Source of the DNA: Paramyrothecium sp. XJ0827
Lineage: Eukaryota > Ascomycota > Sordariomycetes > Hypocreales > Stachybotryaceae
Direction of reading: 5' to 3'
Assembly (NCBI GenBank): GCA_020881915.1
Contig: JAJFPB010000009.1
Location: 2,852,001 to 2,916,000, forward strand
Length of the DNA stretch: 64,000 nt
Shown: piece by piece, positions 31,043 to 43,270 of the stretch
How the letters are laid out: each line of letters begins with the position of its first letter
Position numbering within the stretch: the first letter of the stretch is position 1
Notes under the pieces: model-generated
The model's database searches: none
Seen by the model: only the letters and a program-made list of their open reading frames with translations
Told to the model about the DNA's origin: nothing
Translations under genes and position numbers: made by a program

Positions 31043-32999
31043 CTATAGACTAATTTCCTGCCTTGGATATTCTTGGGTAAGGTCTGCCCAATCTTGCTCA
31101 GTAAATTCCGCCTTTCCCGCACCGACGCGTTGATAAGCATTCGCCCTTACTTTGGAAACGACGAGGAAGTAAACGCTTGCCGTTCTATATTCTCCATCCC
31201 CGATTCGGTAGCTCCTCTCACCAATGAATCTGAGTCGCCCCAATGGGACGCAAAAAAGATCTAGACGTGGTTCATTGTCAAGATCAAACACAATGGTCCG
31301 AACTTCTTGCAAGTCAATACTTTGGTAAGGCAACAATCGTGCCCGAAAGCGCAGACTCGAGCCTGCAAACCAGGTGGCTCGGCCATCGCTCTCAAACACC
31401 CCGTTGGTATGAAAGCTTCCTCCTTCGACCTCGTAGACATCCATTGGAACGTCTGGAAACCCGAGAAAACTGACTTGGCAGTCCACAGAGGCCCATGACC
31501 ACGAGGGTGCGCGGTGCCACTGCCTTGGAGATTGCGGCGCTGGCCCAACTCGGATCCAGGCAAGCAGTTCCGGCCACGCGTTCTGCCAAATACCAAAGCT
31601 GTATATGGTCTGCCAGAGTTCCTGCAGCTGCTGTGCCACACCTTGCAGCGCTCTGAGTCGATCCTCCGGCTCTGCCAACGCCCGCGCCGTGTATTGAGAT
31701 ACGATCGATTTCCAAAGGCTACACTGCTTTGTGTACCGAGTTTGCATGTGCTTCTCTTCTTTCTGTTGCCCGTCGTTGGATAACATCCACATACGACTCA
31801 AGTCTTTTTTCATGATTTGGTACTCTGGAACTTTGCCCGTAGTCTCCTGCGACTTAAACGTATTGGGAGTCAGATACATACGATCAGCTTCGAAATTCTG
31901 GCGGACATCATCCAACCAGTTGGGCAGCTGATCGATCGTGTTTAGATATGTAGAGACAGATTTCCTCAAGCGCACAAGCCCTTTCTTTCTGCAAAACCAC
32001 AAGACCTGCTCCGGAGCGAATACTATCATCTTTTGGGAGAGAAAGAACTCCTGGAAGGCCCAGCCGCGTCGGCCAAGGGGCAACAGGTTGATGTCAATGG
32101 GTTGGGGTTTAAGGACGAGTGAAATCATCCCTTCTTTGCTTCCGCCAAGCGGAAACCGTGTCTTCAATGACTTGGGAGGCGATCGGTGGACACGGAGAAA
32201 CCCTTCGTGGCAGCCCGAAGCGCCCGCTGCGGCAATGGTGGCTGTGGCATTACGGTAGATACTGCCCATTAGTTCAATCTCTCGATCTTTGTCAAGGGCG
32301 GAGTCCTGCAAGATGCATAGTGCATCTACCCAGAGATACTTGTACCCTAAGCGTCGAGTCACCTCTATGGCGTCTTGCAACGTCTGAGGGAGAACACTGA
32401 CATCAAGACCAGCTCTCAGAGCAGCCATATTCTCCGTTGTCGCGCGGTATGTGGACTCGTGACCCCAGCAGTAGCTAAGGGTCAGGTAATCATCCCTCTC
32501 GTTCTGGCTGGATTCATGGACTCTAAAAGAGCGGTCCGACCCATTGCCTGTCATGACCACACGTCTTGGTAGAATCGGCTTATCCGCAGGAGTTTGACAG
32601 CGGCCATGGTTTTCATGGCATTCTATGATCGAGTTTTTCAGAGACTCAAAGACCTCATTGTTGCTGAGGTCCGTTGCCACAGGCCTAAGCGGGAAATGCT
32701 CGGCGGCCGGATCGCCTACGTCCTGGTCAAAGGATATTGCACGTAAAAGAAATGGAGCAGACTAGACAAGGCTTACCTTCTTCAGCAAACGCTTTTAATG
32801 TCACAGTATCTCTTTCGCGTTCTTCGTCTCCGATACTAGCAAGTTGCCTGAGCTCCTTACACATGGAACAACCGGGCCCCCAGACGTTATTGTGCACGTA
32901 ACCCTTGTCAGAGAGGAGACTGACGACATCTGGGAATAGGCGTGGATTTTTTGCCTGAGTAAAAAGCCTTTGACAAATCGTGCAATAGTTCTGCGCCAT
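31043..32999 (-). CDS. HET-domain (heterokaryon incompatibility) protein
   Basis: Two exons (intron 32776..32716; GTAAGC donor, GTAG acceptor), 631 aa from ATG 32999; the frame upstream to 33071 has only a TTG. The N-terminus is Cys-rich (NYCTICQRLF, GCSMCKEL), common in this class. The HET core is clear: YLTLSYCWGH near residue 150, LPQTLQDAIEVTRRLGYKYL, WVDALCILQDS, IYRNATATIAAAGA and GRRGWAFQEFFLSQKMIVF with VLWFC. The C-terminal part includes APSWSWASVD, also typical. HET proteins trigger cell death or growth arrest when incompatible nuclei share cytoplasm; many copies occur in filamentous fungi, mostly with unknown partners. The gene looks intact. No partner gene (NACHT, patatin-like) is adjacent. 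Confidence 0.93.
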
Positions 33000-35020
33000 C
33001 TTGCCAGCAGGTTGACGTTTCTGCAGGCGTTGCTGCGAGTTGTGGAAGATCGCTACCTTAGCGTCTGCCAACGCTCACCGATAGTTCTCTCCCCACAAGT
33101 ATAGCAATCACGAGGTGTTTACTCTCAGCCAGAGAAATGTTGAATGCTCACATTTATGGGTTGATCTTTGACGCTCACCCCGTAAATGAGAGGGGAGAAG
33201 AAATTGCGTGCAAACAACGAAGTAGGTATCGGAAGAGCGGGACGTAATGCGGAGCCAAGTCAGGGGTTGCTGGGATCATCAGCCACACTACGCAACCAGT
33301 CATGGTGACCCCGAAGCTCGAGGTGGCTCAGCAATACACCGCCCCGTGGCTTAAAACACGTAGCAGATGGGGTTTACAGCACCTCCGTTCTGCGTTGCTG
33401 GAACCAATTAGACTCCCACAACGTAAAGAAACGACTTTGTTCTCTTATGAGTAGTACTCAAGATTGGCTTTCTCGTCTCGGGTAAGGTCACTTCCCAATA
33501 AGTAGACCTCACCTAGACACGTCCCATACCATATCAGCTTCGCTGCACAGAGGCGCTAGACAGTGTTCCCTGATCAGCCAAAGCAAGCCTGACAGATCTC
33601 ATGGTATCAAATGGCGGAATGACCATTCAAGTAAGGTTACATACTTCATTATTTTTCGGTGGCCTCATCATTCTATCCTGCTCTACGTGACGCCTGTCCT
33701 GCAAACTACCGTACTCCACAAAGCAAACCCCCCTCCAGAGAATAAATTGACCAGTCAAGCCCAGGAAGAGGTTGCGGTGTAAAAGAATTGATTAAGCGCG
33801 ACAGGCCCTCTATCCGTAAAAATGTTCAAAATCGCTCCGTAGCGTGACACAAGAAAGTAATCTGGTCAATGCCGGTTCCCTTGATTGGCGTGCTTACTAT
33901 CCTGGGTCAACGTAACAGCCTCTGGAGGGCTAGGAGGATGTTGTATTGCAGTTGGCTTTGCGCATCAGCCACAGTCCGCGACCAACCATGGAAAGCTCCG
34001 GCAGTGGATGGGTTGATACCGCACACCGCCCAGCTAGTCGTATTGCACTCCCAGTCCCCAATTACCTACCATGCACAAAGAGCCCACACAACCACACACA
34101 AGCTACAAGTGCTGTCTGAGCGGCGCAAAGAATCAAGACACACGAGGACATGCAGACTCAGGGAAGGGGGTTCTAGGATAATATTACATGTATCCATTTC
34201 CTCGAAGCAACTGCCGCGGCGATTCTGCCTTGGCGAACGCCATTCAGTTGGACTTCTCAATTTGACCTAACGCCCGTCCAGATTAGGCCACAGCGTCTGT
34301 TGGATCTGGGGAAAAAATATGCGCCACAACGGCTCGTGCAGCGAGCTGAGAAGGCCTGTAAAAGGATTATTTATCTGTCAGATCTCGATGACATCAGGGT
34401 GCCTGTCTGAGTTACACGGTTGAGCGCCGCGATGCCGAGGGCAACGCCAGTTGTCAACAAGGAGGACATCGATCCCAAAACTGTCATTAAAAAAAGCTAT
34501 CACCATTCTTCAGACCAACAAAACCGATTATGCCCAGACCCAGGCTACTGGACTTTGATCGAGATTACTCCCCAGGTGGACTTGACGTTCTTCTTCGTGA
34601 TGCTCAAGTATGGCGCAGGTACAAGCATATTATTTCGCATAGTTCCTTTGGATCCACCACTCGCTTTCGCCCCTGGAACCAATATTCCAAGCTGAAAATG
34701 CGAGCTCAAAGCTGCGGGCTATGATGCGCCACGTCGCCTAAACCAGGTATATAAATGTTGTCCATTTTCTTACCTTTTCCCTTTCGCTGATCGATCGACG
34801 GAGACGATGAATATTCATCAGTGATTGCAATAAATTTTGCTCTGCAAGCAATTTTTCCTGTCCGACTTAGCTTCTCAATTCTGTTCGCGGAAATTGAAAG
34901 ATCCCAATACTACCGATACGTGTTCAAGCACATTCTCAACACAATGTAAGTATCAATTCTTCCCTCGTGCACGATTCAAACACCTAAAGTTGTCAAATCT
35001 AGCAGTGTTTATATTTAAGG
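33000..35020. other. Long intergenic region
   Basis: 2 kb. Frames at 33869-34270 and 34420-34695 show no domain or signal peptide and are probably chance. The right end carries a TATA box and the leader of the small Cys-rich peptide gene. Confidence 0.45.
34748..34755 (+). promoter_or_regulatory. Candidate TATA box for the Cys-rich peptide gene at 35021
   Basis: TATATAAA, 273 nt upstream of the ATG, implying a leader of about 240 nt. It is the best TATA-like site in this stretch. Confidence 0.4.
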
Positions 35021-35257
35021 ATGAAGTGTCCACATCTACTGTTATGGCTTATTGGAACAACGCTTGCCGCACCGACAGCGCAGCCAGACGAAGTTGCTCT
35101 CGTAAGTATATGCCATGATCAAGAAGAGCTCGTTTAACACGCACGATTATAGGCATGCTTTCAAAAATGTACTAGCGTTAGCAATTGTTTCTTTGGATCC
35201 CAGTCTATGCAAATCGCGTGTTTGGCGAAATGCTCACGGCAATGTGGTCTCAGATGA
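35021..35257 (+). CDS. Very small secreted cysteine-rich peptide (61 aa precursor)
   Basis: Too short for ordinary ORF calling. Exon 1 35021-35101 encodes a signal peptide MKCPHLLLWLIGTTLAA and a short acidic spacer PTAQPDEVAL. Intron 35102-35152 (51 nt, GTAAGT..TAG) is phase 0. Exon 2 35153-35257 encodes a compact Cys-rich domain starting ACFQKCTSVSNC and ending ACLAKCSRQCGLR, then TGA. Spacing is C-x3-C-x5-C-x10-C-x3-C-x3-C, six cysteines in 34 residues. The paired C-x3-C spacings recall helical-hairpin disulfide peptides, but no known family is claimed. Perfect donor and acceptor, a signal peptide ending exactly before the exon break and an even Cys count argue against chance. Possible antimicrobial, signalling or effector peptide (inference). 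Confidence 0.65.
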
Positions 35258-35545: not shown

Positions 35546-36430
35546 CTATTCATCCGGCCTGAGCCCGACCATACAGTCCTCAGACGGCTTATGCCTGTCG
35601 AGGGCTGCTGCTTCAGTATCAGAATAGGGATTTCGTTTGACTTGGCTGTTTGTGGTAATGGGAGATAAGTCGCTGCGTAAACATGTCTCAGAGGAAGACG
35701 CGCTCAGTTTGTGCATAGAGCGCACCGCTTCGTTGGCTATATACTCTTGTATGAGGGTACAGTCGTGGTGGGTATGGCAGAGCAGCGCATCTTTGAGGAA
35801 GTAGATTTCAGAAGAGAGTGACATGTAGCTGGTGGTCAAGTACTGGTTGTGGTTTCCCAATGCCTGTTCATGGGAAGAAAGACCAGAGGCTTTGTCGCCG
35901 TTACGCACACGGCATCTCTTGGCGGCAATGCGATTGCGTGCTAAGATCTTGTGGCGTCCGGTATACCCAATATCTTGGATGTCTATGCCGTCAAATGTTT
36001 GGCTTCCATCATCGTCATCTTAGTCGAAGTTAAGGGGACCATCGTGAAGTCCCTGTAGGGGTAGGGCATGGGACGAGTGCGAGGAGATTTCTTGGGGTTA
36101 TGGTCGAACTTTTTAGGCTTGGCTTCGGGATTGATGGAGTTGATGTGGTAGCTCTCAGATAATAAGACTGGGGGTGAAGCGTGTGGGGAATAATCGTTTT
36201 TTCTGAAAGGTTTCTGACTATCCATTTTGCGAAACAGGTCGGCGTGTCTGGGTTGGCGCTTACTATGAGACTTTAGGGGCCCGAATGGTACTCTCGCTCA
36301 AAATTGACAACTGTAGGGCCTCACGTTCATGAGAAGTGCTTGGAGCGGTGGATTCCTGGGAGTAGGCAGTGCCGGAGGCTGACACTGGTGAGGAGGTATA
36401 AGCTGCTTGTGAAAACTGCTGACCCTCAGC
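35546..36430 (-). CDS. bZIP transcription factor, ATF/CREB-like (5' end and one junction unresolved)
   Basis: The C-terminal exon, ending at TAG 35546, has a basic region RHKILARNRIAAKRCR followed by heptad-like text: LGNHNQYLTTSYMSL, then SSEIYFLKDALLCHTHHDC and LIQEYIANEA, the usual C-terminal flank of fungal ATF-type bZIPs. Upstream, exon 36430..36264 (YTSSPVSASGTAYSQEST, rich in S/T/Q/P) joins through a GTAAGC..TAG intron (36263..36218) in frame to exon 36217 onwards (QKPFRKNDYSPH ... PYPYRDF). The step from there into the bZIP exon, which begins near 36018 after CTAAG, needs a frame change. Only a weak GTCCCA donor fits, so this is either a poor intron or a frameshift. Coding-like text continues further upstream to about 36880, so the true start is probably beyond the given end. 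ATF-type factors bind TGACGTCA-like sites, often in stress responses. Confidence 0.6.
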
Positions 36431-38513: not shown

Positions 38514-39360
38514 ATGAGTGCACAAGTCTTCCCGTGTCCGGCGACGGATGATTTCAACTGGTCTACGCCTCAGTCTAGAACAGGATCCTCTTCCGACTCT
38601 AAAACAAAACCAATTCACCGTGCTTCCAAGCGTGGTCATAGTAGCGCCGCAGCAGTCACCCATCGTGATCAGCTTACAAAGGCGGCTGGTCTCAAGAGTC
38701 GCCATCAGCGAGTCTGGAAGGCCTGCGAGAGGTGTCGTACGAAGAAAACGAGGGTATTTCATGCCGTTTCATCCCATAATGGTATTTGTCTAACGCCATT
38801 ATTAGTGCGATGGTGAATTTCCTTGCAAGAGATGCAAGGATGACGGCTCCATTTGCATTGCCGGAGTCTCTAAGAAGATGGAATACAAGCAGCTGCCGAA
38901 AGGGTGAGTTCATATCTGACATGTGTCTCTGACTGTAACTAACGGACAATTCAGCTACGCCGAGGTGCTCGAGAACACACAATTCGCCCTTATCGCCACA
39001 GTGTACAAGTTGTATTCAATGGTTCGTAATGGAGAGCAATGGGACTTGGATGAACCCGAAATCAATGACCGCGGTCAGCCCGTAATTCACAACATCGCCC
39101 AGAAGCTCGGCTGCATCCGCCCGAATGGGGATTATGATTTTCTCGTCCACTCGGCGTTCCCCGATGAGGTCGGTATGGCTGAATGGGCCCGTTACTTGGA
39201 AAAGCAGGAGGAGTGGGAAAACCTACTGAGAAGGGAATCAAGAAAGAGACTCATAGTCAATCCAACCGTGCCTCTTCTTTGGACCTCGTTTCTTCCGACT
39301 TCAAGCACGACTACTGCAATGCAGCCTTGGGGTGACCTCAGCTATGATATAGCCTTCTAA
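38514..39360 (+). CDS. Small Zn2Cys6 binuclear-cluster transcription factor
   Basis: Three exons, introns 38754-38805 (phase 0) and 38904-38954 (phase 2); about 247 aa. The zinc cluster is split by the first intron: WKACERCRTKKTR joins CDGEFPCKRCKDDGSIC, giving C-x2-C-x6-C-x5-C-x2-C-x6-C. Basic residues precede it (KSRHQRVWK). After the cluster YKQLPKGYAEVLENTQFALI and VYKLYSMVRNGEQW resemble the short linker/coiled region seen in a group of compact fungal Zn2Cys6 proteins. The large Fungal_trans middle domain is absent. It probably binds CGG half-sites; targets unknown. It lies next to secreted-peptide genes, so local control is possible but unproven. Confidence 0.85.
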
Positions 39361-39583
39361 CTTAATAGCTAGGGGTATATATATTTACTATGATGAGCAT
39401 GGCCACGGAAAGATAACTTCTTTACTTTTAATGGCTTAAACACTTTTGCATTTGCATCCAAGATATAGGGAAACCTATCTAGCTATAGGGCAAAACCCAT
39501 ACCAAAGTATTTAAGACTAGTAATAGTAGTGAAGTCCATTATATTCGAGCCTCCACTTCGCCCTAATCATAAGAGTCTCTCGC

Positions 39584-40040
39584 TTACTTGGAGGCAATGT
39601 ACTGCAAATGTGAGTATTTGTCACGCAAATAAAGAGAAGTGAGAGCTTACCGTCCAGCAGCTGTGAGGCCAGATTATTCCGTTGCCGCAGTGAATCTTGC
39701 TCTTATCACCCTATGCCAGTGAGTATTCACACTTGGGATGAATTCGAGTTAGGGACTTACTCCTGCCAAATCAATACAGTCCGCCTTGACCTTGCAATCG
39801 CTATCATCATTACACTATATTTTTGGTATTAGTCCGCTGCTGTTTGTCGATGGCCGCTAGTGCAGGACGTACCGTAACAGTCTTGGCGCAATAATCCCAG
39901 GCGGCAGCTTCAGCATTCTCATCGCTCTCTACGTTGTTGGCCTGATCAACTTGACGAGCTTCAGCGACCTGCTCGGCGGGGGACGCAAGGCCCATGGCTG
40001 CAGATACCAAGAGAATACTGGCTGTGGCTTGAAATTTCAT
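39584..40040 (-). CDS. Small secreted six-cysteine protein, four exons
   Basis: Start ATG 40040 (MKFQATASILLVSAAMGLA|SPAE signal peptide); the in-frame upstream start at 40067 would spoil it. All three introns are phase 0 with good ends: GTACGT..TAG, GTAAGT..TAG and GTAAGC..CAG. Spliced, the acidic pro-like segment VDQANNVESDENAEAAAW is followed by a Cys domain: WDYCAKTVTCNDDSDCK, KADCIDLAGGDK, KIHCGNGIIWPHSCW, ending YIASK and TAA at 39584. About 99 aa with six Cys, likely three disulfides. The third exon junction brings the last cysteines together, which supports the structure. A TATATAAA box lies upstream at 40181..40174. No known domain recognised; candidate effector or antimicrobial protein (inference). 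Confidence 0.75.
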
Positions 40041-42154: not shown

Positions 42155-43270
42155 ATGTCATCATGTCATCACGCAGAAGCTACTCCATCCTCTGAGAACA
42201 TTTCAAATTTGATATCTTGTACAATCAAGTCAATTATATCTTTCTTCGGTTCCGTTTTGGCAATCCCGAGTCTTCAACTGGTCCTGGCGTCCTCCGGAGG
42301 TGGTCATTCTGTTGACAATGCGATTGTTGATCAAATGCCAAGCATGAAAAACATTTCTTGCAGTTTGGGCGCAAATCTAAAGCCTTTTTATGCTATCGGG
42401 CATCATATACTTCACGACTCGAATGTTATCGATGCACTGAATCACGGAGCCAATGCTATTGAGGTCGACATGAACCCAAGTGATGGTGGATGGTATGCTG
42501 ATCACGCCATGATATTTGACAAACGAGGCGATACGGCAGAGACGATCTTCCGGGCTGTGGCACAACAGAGGAGGGATCTGAGCAAACCATTCACATTTGT
42601 GTGGCTAGATCTCAGGGGACCAGATAAATATCTCGACACGGACCATGTTGGTAGTATCGAAAGCTTGCAAAGATTAGCCAGAAGCACACTGCAAGAAGCT
42701 GGTATAAGGGTTCTGTATGGTTTCTACCCTAAACAGGTCAAAGGAAGGGCTTTCGGCGTCGTTGCGAGCGACTTGAACAGCAATGAAACCATCAACATTG
42801 ATGGCGATAGCGACATTGTCGCAGACGCACGCTTTGGGCAAGGAAAATCGAAGCCTCAAGATCATAAGTGCGTAATGTCAAAGGGCTGTTATCACCTGAC
42901 ATCTGGGCCAACTCCATTTTGTAGCTTATTTGGCACATGTCAACCGGATAATGAAGGTATCTGCTCACAGCCCCGACTTGCGGCTAAAGGTGGGCAGTTC
43001 CAAAAAGTTTTTGGGTGGACGAATACCTATGATTCCAGGGACGAGGCAAGACTGCTCATGGCTAGAGCCGATGTCGATGGCCTCATATACGGATTCAAGA
43101 ACAGCGAATATACTGATCATGTTGAAACCCGAACGGCTCTTAAAACTATTTTCAATGGCTCGAAGATAATCAGGAGAAAAGATGCCTGGCAACAACCGAG
43201 GATCTTCCGTGGTAATACGCTTCGGAATAGCCTAGATTCACTATATGAGCAGGTATACAAACACCTTTAG
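42155..43270 (+). CDS. Sphingomyelinase D-like phospholipase D (GDPD-type TIM barrel)
   Basis: Single exon, 371 aa from ATG 42155; the frame further upstream has only a TTG. An N-terminal hydrophobic stretch (SIISFFGSVLAIPSLQLVLA) suggests a signal peptide or anchor. The catalytic layout of the SMaseD/GDPD fold is visible: first His in FYAIGHH (H83), metal-binding Glu/Asp in GANAIEVDM (E103, D105), second His in YADHAMIF (H117). VWLDLRGPDK, VLYGFYPKQVKGRA, VMSKGCYHL, KVFGWTNTYDSRDEARLL and DGLIYGF follow in the order known for fungal sphingomyelinase D-like proteins. Related enzymes cleave the choline head group of sphingomyelin or lysolipids. The conserved C-terminal tail motif of classical members is not evident here; the end reads differently. 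Likely secreted and lipid-directed; actual substrate unknown. Confidence 0.85.
   Translation: MSSCHHAEATPSSENISNLISCTIKSIISFFGSVLAIPSLQLVLASSGGGHSVDNAIVDQMPSMKNISCSLGANLKPFYAIGHHILHDSNVIDALNHGANAIEVDMNPSDGGWYADHAMIFDKRGDTAETIFRAVAQQRRDLSKPFTFVWLDLRGPDKYLDTDHVGSIESLQRLARSTLQEAGIRVLYGFYPKQVKGRAFGVVASDLNSNETINIDGDSDIVADARFGQGKSKPQDHKCVMSKGCYHLTSGPTPFCSLFGTCQPDNEGICSQPRLAAKGGQFQKVFGWTNTYDSRDEARLLMARADVDGLIYGFKNSEYTDHVETRTALKTIFNGSKIIRRKDAWQQPRIFRGNTLRNSLDSLYEQVYKHL

Follow-up and report, generated by a model that had tools for sequence, protein, structure and literature searches.

The plant six-cysteine (6C) alpha-hairpinins conform to the motif CX3CX3C-X4-20-CX3CX3C, for which a survey, in the part of it drawn on here, gives X10 as the commonest middle spacing (558 of 1057 predicted peptides), and the four-cysteine (4C) alpha-hairpinins to CX3C-X4-20-CX3C with no cysteine in between; the survey filter demanded a signal peptide, and Nigellin-1.1 (PDB 2NB2), which was not itself compared with the peptide discussed below, is a solved 6C structure (PMC11591084). 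In the sections of a second source used here, 4C alpha-hairpinins are described as frequently excised from multi-domain precursors, and hairpins of the kappa-hefutoxin type as carrying a twin CX3C with Cys1-Cys4 and Cys2-Cys3 bonds (PMC7191063). Here, we consider a candidate gene at positions 35021-35257 of a 64-kb window, i.e., the whole 64,000-nucleotide stretch of DNA from the fungus Paramyrothecium sp. XJ0827 that was analysed. Our full reading, to which we assign a probability of about one half, is that the locus is a genuine orphan mini-gene whose secreted product folds as a laddered helical hairpin; we hold with greater confidence that the gene as such is real.

The encoded pattern, CX3C-X5-C-X10-CX3CX3C, is identical to that of the plant 6C alpha-hairpinins in its X10 middle spacing and its CX3CX3C second half, and the two are also alike in the six cysteines, the helix-loop-helix (predicted here), and the signal-peptide-like start. 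They differ in that Cys2 and Cys3 are separated by x5 rather than x3; these two additional residues place Cys3 in the loop of the structural model presented below. Further, the peptide is fungal, comprises one domain behind an intron, and shows no sequence similarity that we could find to the plant forms. It departs from the 6C motif in one spacing and from the 4C motif because Cys3 lies within the 16 residues of an otherwise present CX3C-x16-CX3C. As both inclusion motifs fail, we do not file it as a plant alpha-hairpinin. The Vicilin_N profile (PF04702) has no match in the genome, but neither does it match the control genomes.

A candidate two-exon gene and its product

The first-pass annotation had proposed a 61-residue secreted peptide split between two exons with canonical splice sites, and this was borne out exactly in coordinates, exon layout, and cysteine pattern. 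Translation of the spliced exons yields 61 residues (27 + 34), MKCPHLLLWLIGTTLAAPTAQPDEVAL followed by ACFQKCTSVSNCFFGSQSMQIACLAKCSRQCGLR and the stop, with the spacing C-x3-C-x5-C-x10-C-x3-C-x3-C reproduced across the 34-residue domain (cysteines at domain positions 2, 6, 12, 23, 27, and 31). The components are:

35102..35152, plus strand: intron of 51 nucleotides (nt), with a GTAAGT donor, a TTTAACA branch-like site, and a TATAG acceptor
35021..35101, plus strand: exon 1, with the signal-peptide-like N-terminus MKCPHLLLWLIGTTLA, then a short pro-segment, APTAQPDEVAL (the boundary between them is putative)
35153..35257, plus strand: exon 2, with the 34-residue six-cysteine domain, then a TGA stop

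The GTAAGT donor and TATAG acceptor are canonical, and the branch site conforms to no more than the loose YTNAY consensus. The intron, whose length is divisible by three, would introduce two in-frame stops if retained, so the 61-residue product requires splicing; the second of these stops is the acceptor's own TAG, and the frame of exon 2 thus starts exactly at the splice site. The N-terminus qualifies as a signal peptide by a home-made hydrophobicity rule, and there are no adjacent cysteines, hence no CC flanking the core motif. Four residues of the six-cysteine domain are basic and none is acidic; including the pro-segment brings in two acidic ones. The calculated mass of the peptide is about 3.7-4.8 kDa, from which three disulfides would take 6 Da. 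So small a gene appears easily overlooked in annotation.

As a separate observation, five of the six dipeptides preceding the first domain cysteine (35069-35158, plus strand, spanning the intron) are X-Pro or X-Ala (AP, TA, QP, VA, and LA, but not DE), assuming cleavage after residue 16; this may be coincidence. In other peptide precursors, dipeptides of this type are trimmed by dipeptidyl aminopeptidases.

Predicted fold and disulfides

Structure prediction of the 34-residue domain, which had been proposed as a check, returned a confident helical hairpin in a single-sequence AlphaFold2 model (pLDDT 93.6), with helices at domain residues 2-9 and 17-31. A single chance six-cysteine stretch (n=1), which we picked as the one closest to the gene among those of the codon analysis, gave a pLDDT of 68.8. 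A Foldseek search with the model recovered just two PDB matches, one of them a plant alpha-hairpinin and the other a fragment of a walnut allergen, at non-significant E-values of 5.8 and 8.7. The cysteine register is near-constant (33/33/35) and compatible with nested disulfides, which would be C2-C31, C6-C27, and C12-C23 (1-6/2-5/3-4). The antiparallel helix pair and connecting loop of an alpha-hairpinin are thus a feature of the prediction. The proposal that the paired C-x3-C motifs mark a disulfide-locked helical hairpin thereby gains support from the model, the Foldseek matches, and the register, while the antimicrobial or inhibitor role suggested alongside it stands as an analogy.

Gene or coincidence

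The most serious alternative, which we nonetheless consider unlikely, is that the exons are not a gene at all, that start, splice signals, and six cysteines merely coincide, and that any transcript is non-coding. We gauged this with a scanner for models of 40-100 residues with a signal-peptide-like start, at most one intron obeying donor, branch, and acceptor rules, and six cysteines. It returned one model in the whole window, the 35021-35257 gene, and one six-cysteine signal-peptide model, unspliced, in 190 kb of the same genome (19 stretches, one of which shares 8 kb with the start of the window). Order-1 Markov resampling of the window (40 resamples) gave 0.325 models on average, none with the twin CX3C. 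Among 263 models in 64 Mb of order-1 sequence, six had the twin CX3C (the six printed were all unspliced) and two a GTAAGT donor. Scanning both strands of 100 Mb of order-2 sequence gave 517 models, of which 63 were spliced and three both spliced and twin-CX3C; the nested cysteine ladder occurred in two models, neither spliced. The order-2 rates per 64 kb are therefore 0.33 for any model, 0.040 for spliced ones, 0.0019 for spliced twin-CX3C ones, 0.0013 for the ladder, and 0 for the spliced ladder. With only three spliced six-cysteine twin-CX3C models per 100 Mb of random sequence, a local chance origin of such a model is unlikely. Against coincidence also stand the absence of the ladder from all 63 spliced random models, the confident hairpin as opposed to the poor model of the one chance stretch, and a TATA-like stretch near 34750 together with a plausible leader intron that would remove an upstream ATG:

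34946..35005, plus strand: putative 5'-leader intron of 60 nt (GTAAGT...CAG), from inspection of the sequence

Its excision would eliminate the ATG-TAA at 34944, the nearest upstream ATG, which a TAA follows immediately. With an alternative leader acceptor, AAG at 35019, the 34944 ATG would come to lie in frame right before the start (MMKC...). An in-frame TAG is found at 35000, 5' of the start codon, and further upstream ATGs at 34755 and 34807 would be part of the leader if transcription begins above them.

Several observations weigh on the other side. The scanner rules were drawn up after the peptide was seen, and the chance figures therefore flatter it. Signal-peptide-like six-cysteine models of any kind arise at 0.26-0.33 per 64 kb of random sequence, and where many windows are screened one striking accident is to be expected somewhere; the evidence against chance is good rather than conclusive. 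Codon usage, neutral to negative, gives no sign that the exons are coding. Log-odds were trained on nine open reading frames (ORFs) from the window, of which eight match Pfam; by this measure the two exons score -0.108 bits per codon, among non-coding sequence. Their score is equalled or exceeded by 82% of 646 non-coding stop-free segments, and 1.3% of 457 coding segments, drawn from the ORFs used for training, lie at or below it. Correcting for amino-acid composition makes the outcome neutral (68% and 7.4%, respectively). Nor was a homologue or paralogue found. The 61-mer had no candidate sharing three 5-residue words among 5.8 billion proteins; this is weak evidence of absence, since shared words are needed and an unannotated spliced gene would be missing from the database, which does include Hypocreales proteins. 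At E<=10, it had no match to Pfam, where HMMER filters discard most weak matches, or to PDB sequences, and Rfam gave none over the window at gathering thresholds. Queries with exon 2, the 61-mer, and 600 bp of DNA each returned only their own locus in the 51.8-Mb genome, in a paralogue search that scores the best candidates only and could let a diverged copy escape. At present, this is one orphan locus, known here from its sequence.

Other secreted or mitochondrial proteins

It is rather improbable that the gene is real and its peptide secreted but with the cysteines paired differently, for instance in the ShKT-like topology 1-6/2-4/3-5. The final four spacings, x5-x10-x3-x3, do resemble the x4-x10-x3-x2 of ShKT domains, the M-x3-C-x3-C run is ShKT-like, and ShKT domains also have short helices. 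However, the first spacing is x3 as against x8 in ShKT, and the long predicted helix pair and the cysteine register favour nested pairing. The filtered Pfam search yielded no ShKT match to the peptide, and PF01549 has no match anywhere in the genome, or in the control genomes either; the absence of ShKT and other six-cysteine folds from the Foldseek list is no evidence against them. That the product is a non-secreted mitochondrial protein of the twin-CX3C small-Tim type is highly improbable: CX3C-x16-CX3C fits the small-Tim spacing and nested disulfides occur there too, but none of the four genome matches to PF02953 (zf-Tim10_DDP) at E<=0.001 lies at this locus, the peptide has no Pfam match, its start is signal-peptide-like, and it has two additional cysteines and no long flanking helices.

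A proposed function

Returning to the laddered-hairpin peptide, we propose that this fungal gene, with its two coding exons and probably restricted to its lineage, would, upon expression, yield a secreted product. Passage through the secretory pathway would take off the signal peptide, and the pro-segment, APTAQPDEVAL, which is mildly acidic, may be trimmed as well. The 34-residue domain, itself cationic, would then fold as an antiparallel helical hairpin with three nested disulfides, a small and protease-stable scaffold like that of the 6C alpha-hairpinins, exposing the loop between its helices (NCFFGS) and carrying a second helix of basic character. Its most likely use would be extracellular, directed either at competitors or at the proteases of hosts or insects.

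A trypsin target is unlikely, because the loop lacks the arginine that plant trypsin inhibitors carry there (PMC7191063, as far as used here). The Phe-Phe found in its place would suit chymotrypsin- or subtilisin-type enzymes. The same part of that source reports that changing the loop arginine of FtAMP to alanine or phenylalanine gains chymotrypsin and elastase inhibition, and that native BWI-2c has no inhibitory effect on chymotrypsin or subtilisin (PMC7191063). By this analogy, the peptide is perhaps a secreted cationic scaffold acting as a chymotrypsin-type inhibitor or an antimicrobial; a membrane- or wall-active antimicrobial would be the main alternative to protease inhibition. A more far-reaching proposal, which we regard as doubtful, is that a fungus arrived independently at a laddered alpha-hairpin with three disulfides, as a counterpart of the plant 6C alpha-hairpinins. 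It would be secreted as a peptide in its own right, either inhibiting chymotrypsin/subtilisin-type proteases through its Phe-Phe loop or acting as an antimicrobial, and would represent a whole class of mini-genes, split by introns, that fungal annotations lack.

Genomic neighbourhood

The window spans 2.85-2.92 Mb of a 3.17-Mb contig, one of the 15 of the genome. Two neighbouring ORFs frame the locus:

31043-32761: HET-domain ORF, upstream of the peptide gene
35546-36019, minus strand: bZIP-like ORF (PF00170, E 1.9e-6), convergent with the peptide gene

The stop codons of the peptide gene and the bZIP-like ORF are separated by 288 bases. Neighbouring proteins have their best matches in Hypocreales: the HET protein to Paramyrothecium foliicola (54%), and an S58 peptidase to Clonostachys byssicola (83%) and Stachybotrys chartarum (82%).

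Three further loci were observed nearby. A second small secreted-looking six-cysteine protein of 99 residues lies at 39584-40040 (minus strand), its gene predicted to have four coding exons separated by canonical GT-AG introns (58, 50, and 49 nt); the scanner missed it because only one intron was allowed. A short gene at 38514-39362 (plus strand) has a Zn2Cys6-like cysteine cluster interrupted by an intron; three pieces of it had no Pfam match. A single-exon ORF at 42155-43270 (plus strand), with no Pfam match at E 0.1, resembles fungal phospholipase-D/sphingomyelinase-D-like proteins, judging by eye.

Comparison with known cysteine-rich hairpins

The vicilin leader parts of Jug r 2 and Ara h 1 are hairpins. 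Together with the 4C alpha-hairpinins BWI-2c (2LQX), VhTI, and EcAMP1, they have in common with the fungal peptide the predicted fold, the twin CX3C, and a constant cysteine register, and it is in this group that the Foldseek matches of the model fall; the 4C forms have two disulfides, whereas three are predicted here. The channel blockers of the kappa-hefutoxin type, likened to the peptide by description and with no sequence compared, are by contrast of animal origin, 22-27 residues long, and have two disulfides. Among fungi, the repeats of Cin1 from Venturia inaequalis (PDB 2LHT) are likewise cysteine-rich helix-loop-helix modules. As given in the parts of two sources used here, Cin1 is a genus-restricted candidate effector with eight repeats of 52-64 residues, forming three-helix bundles (PMC4617103, PMC9632046). 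A Cin1-like repeat was ruled out, the peptide being a single 34-residue domain with two predicted helices, and the lybatides were set aside, as their cysteine pattern and single helix, in the portion of the report used, differ from it (PMC5507927). Judging by titles and abstract openings, we found no fungal alpha-hairpinin, helical-hairpin, or ShKT peptide of comparable kind in the open-access papers searched.

If the gene is real, it would suggest that splice-aware scanning combined with single-sequence folding can find short, intron-split secreted peptides in fungal genomes. It would also represent a fungal convergence on a scaffold described, in the source parts cited, from plants and animal venoms, with a third disulfide rung added (PMC11591084, PMC7191063). 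By analogy, then, the peptide probably works like a six-cysteine alpha-hairpinin, though it is not classed as one.
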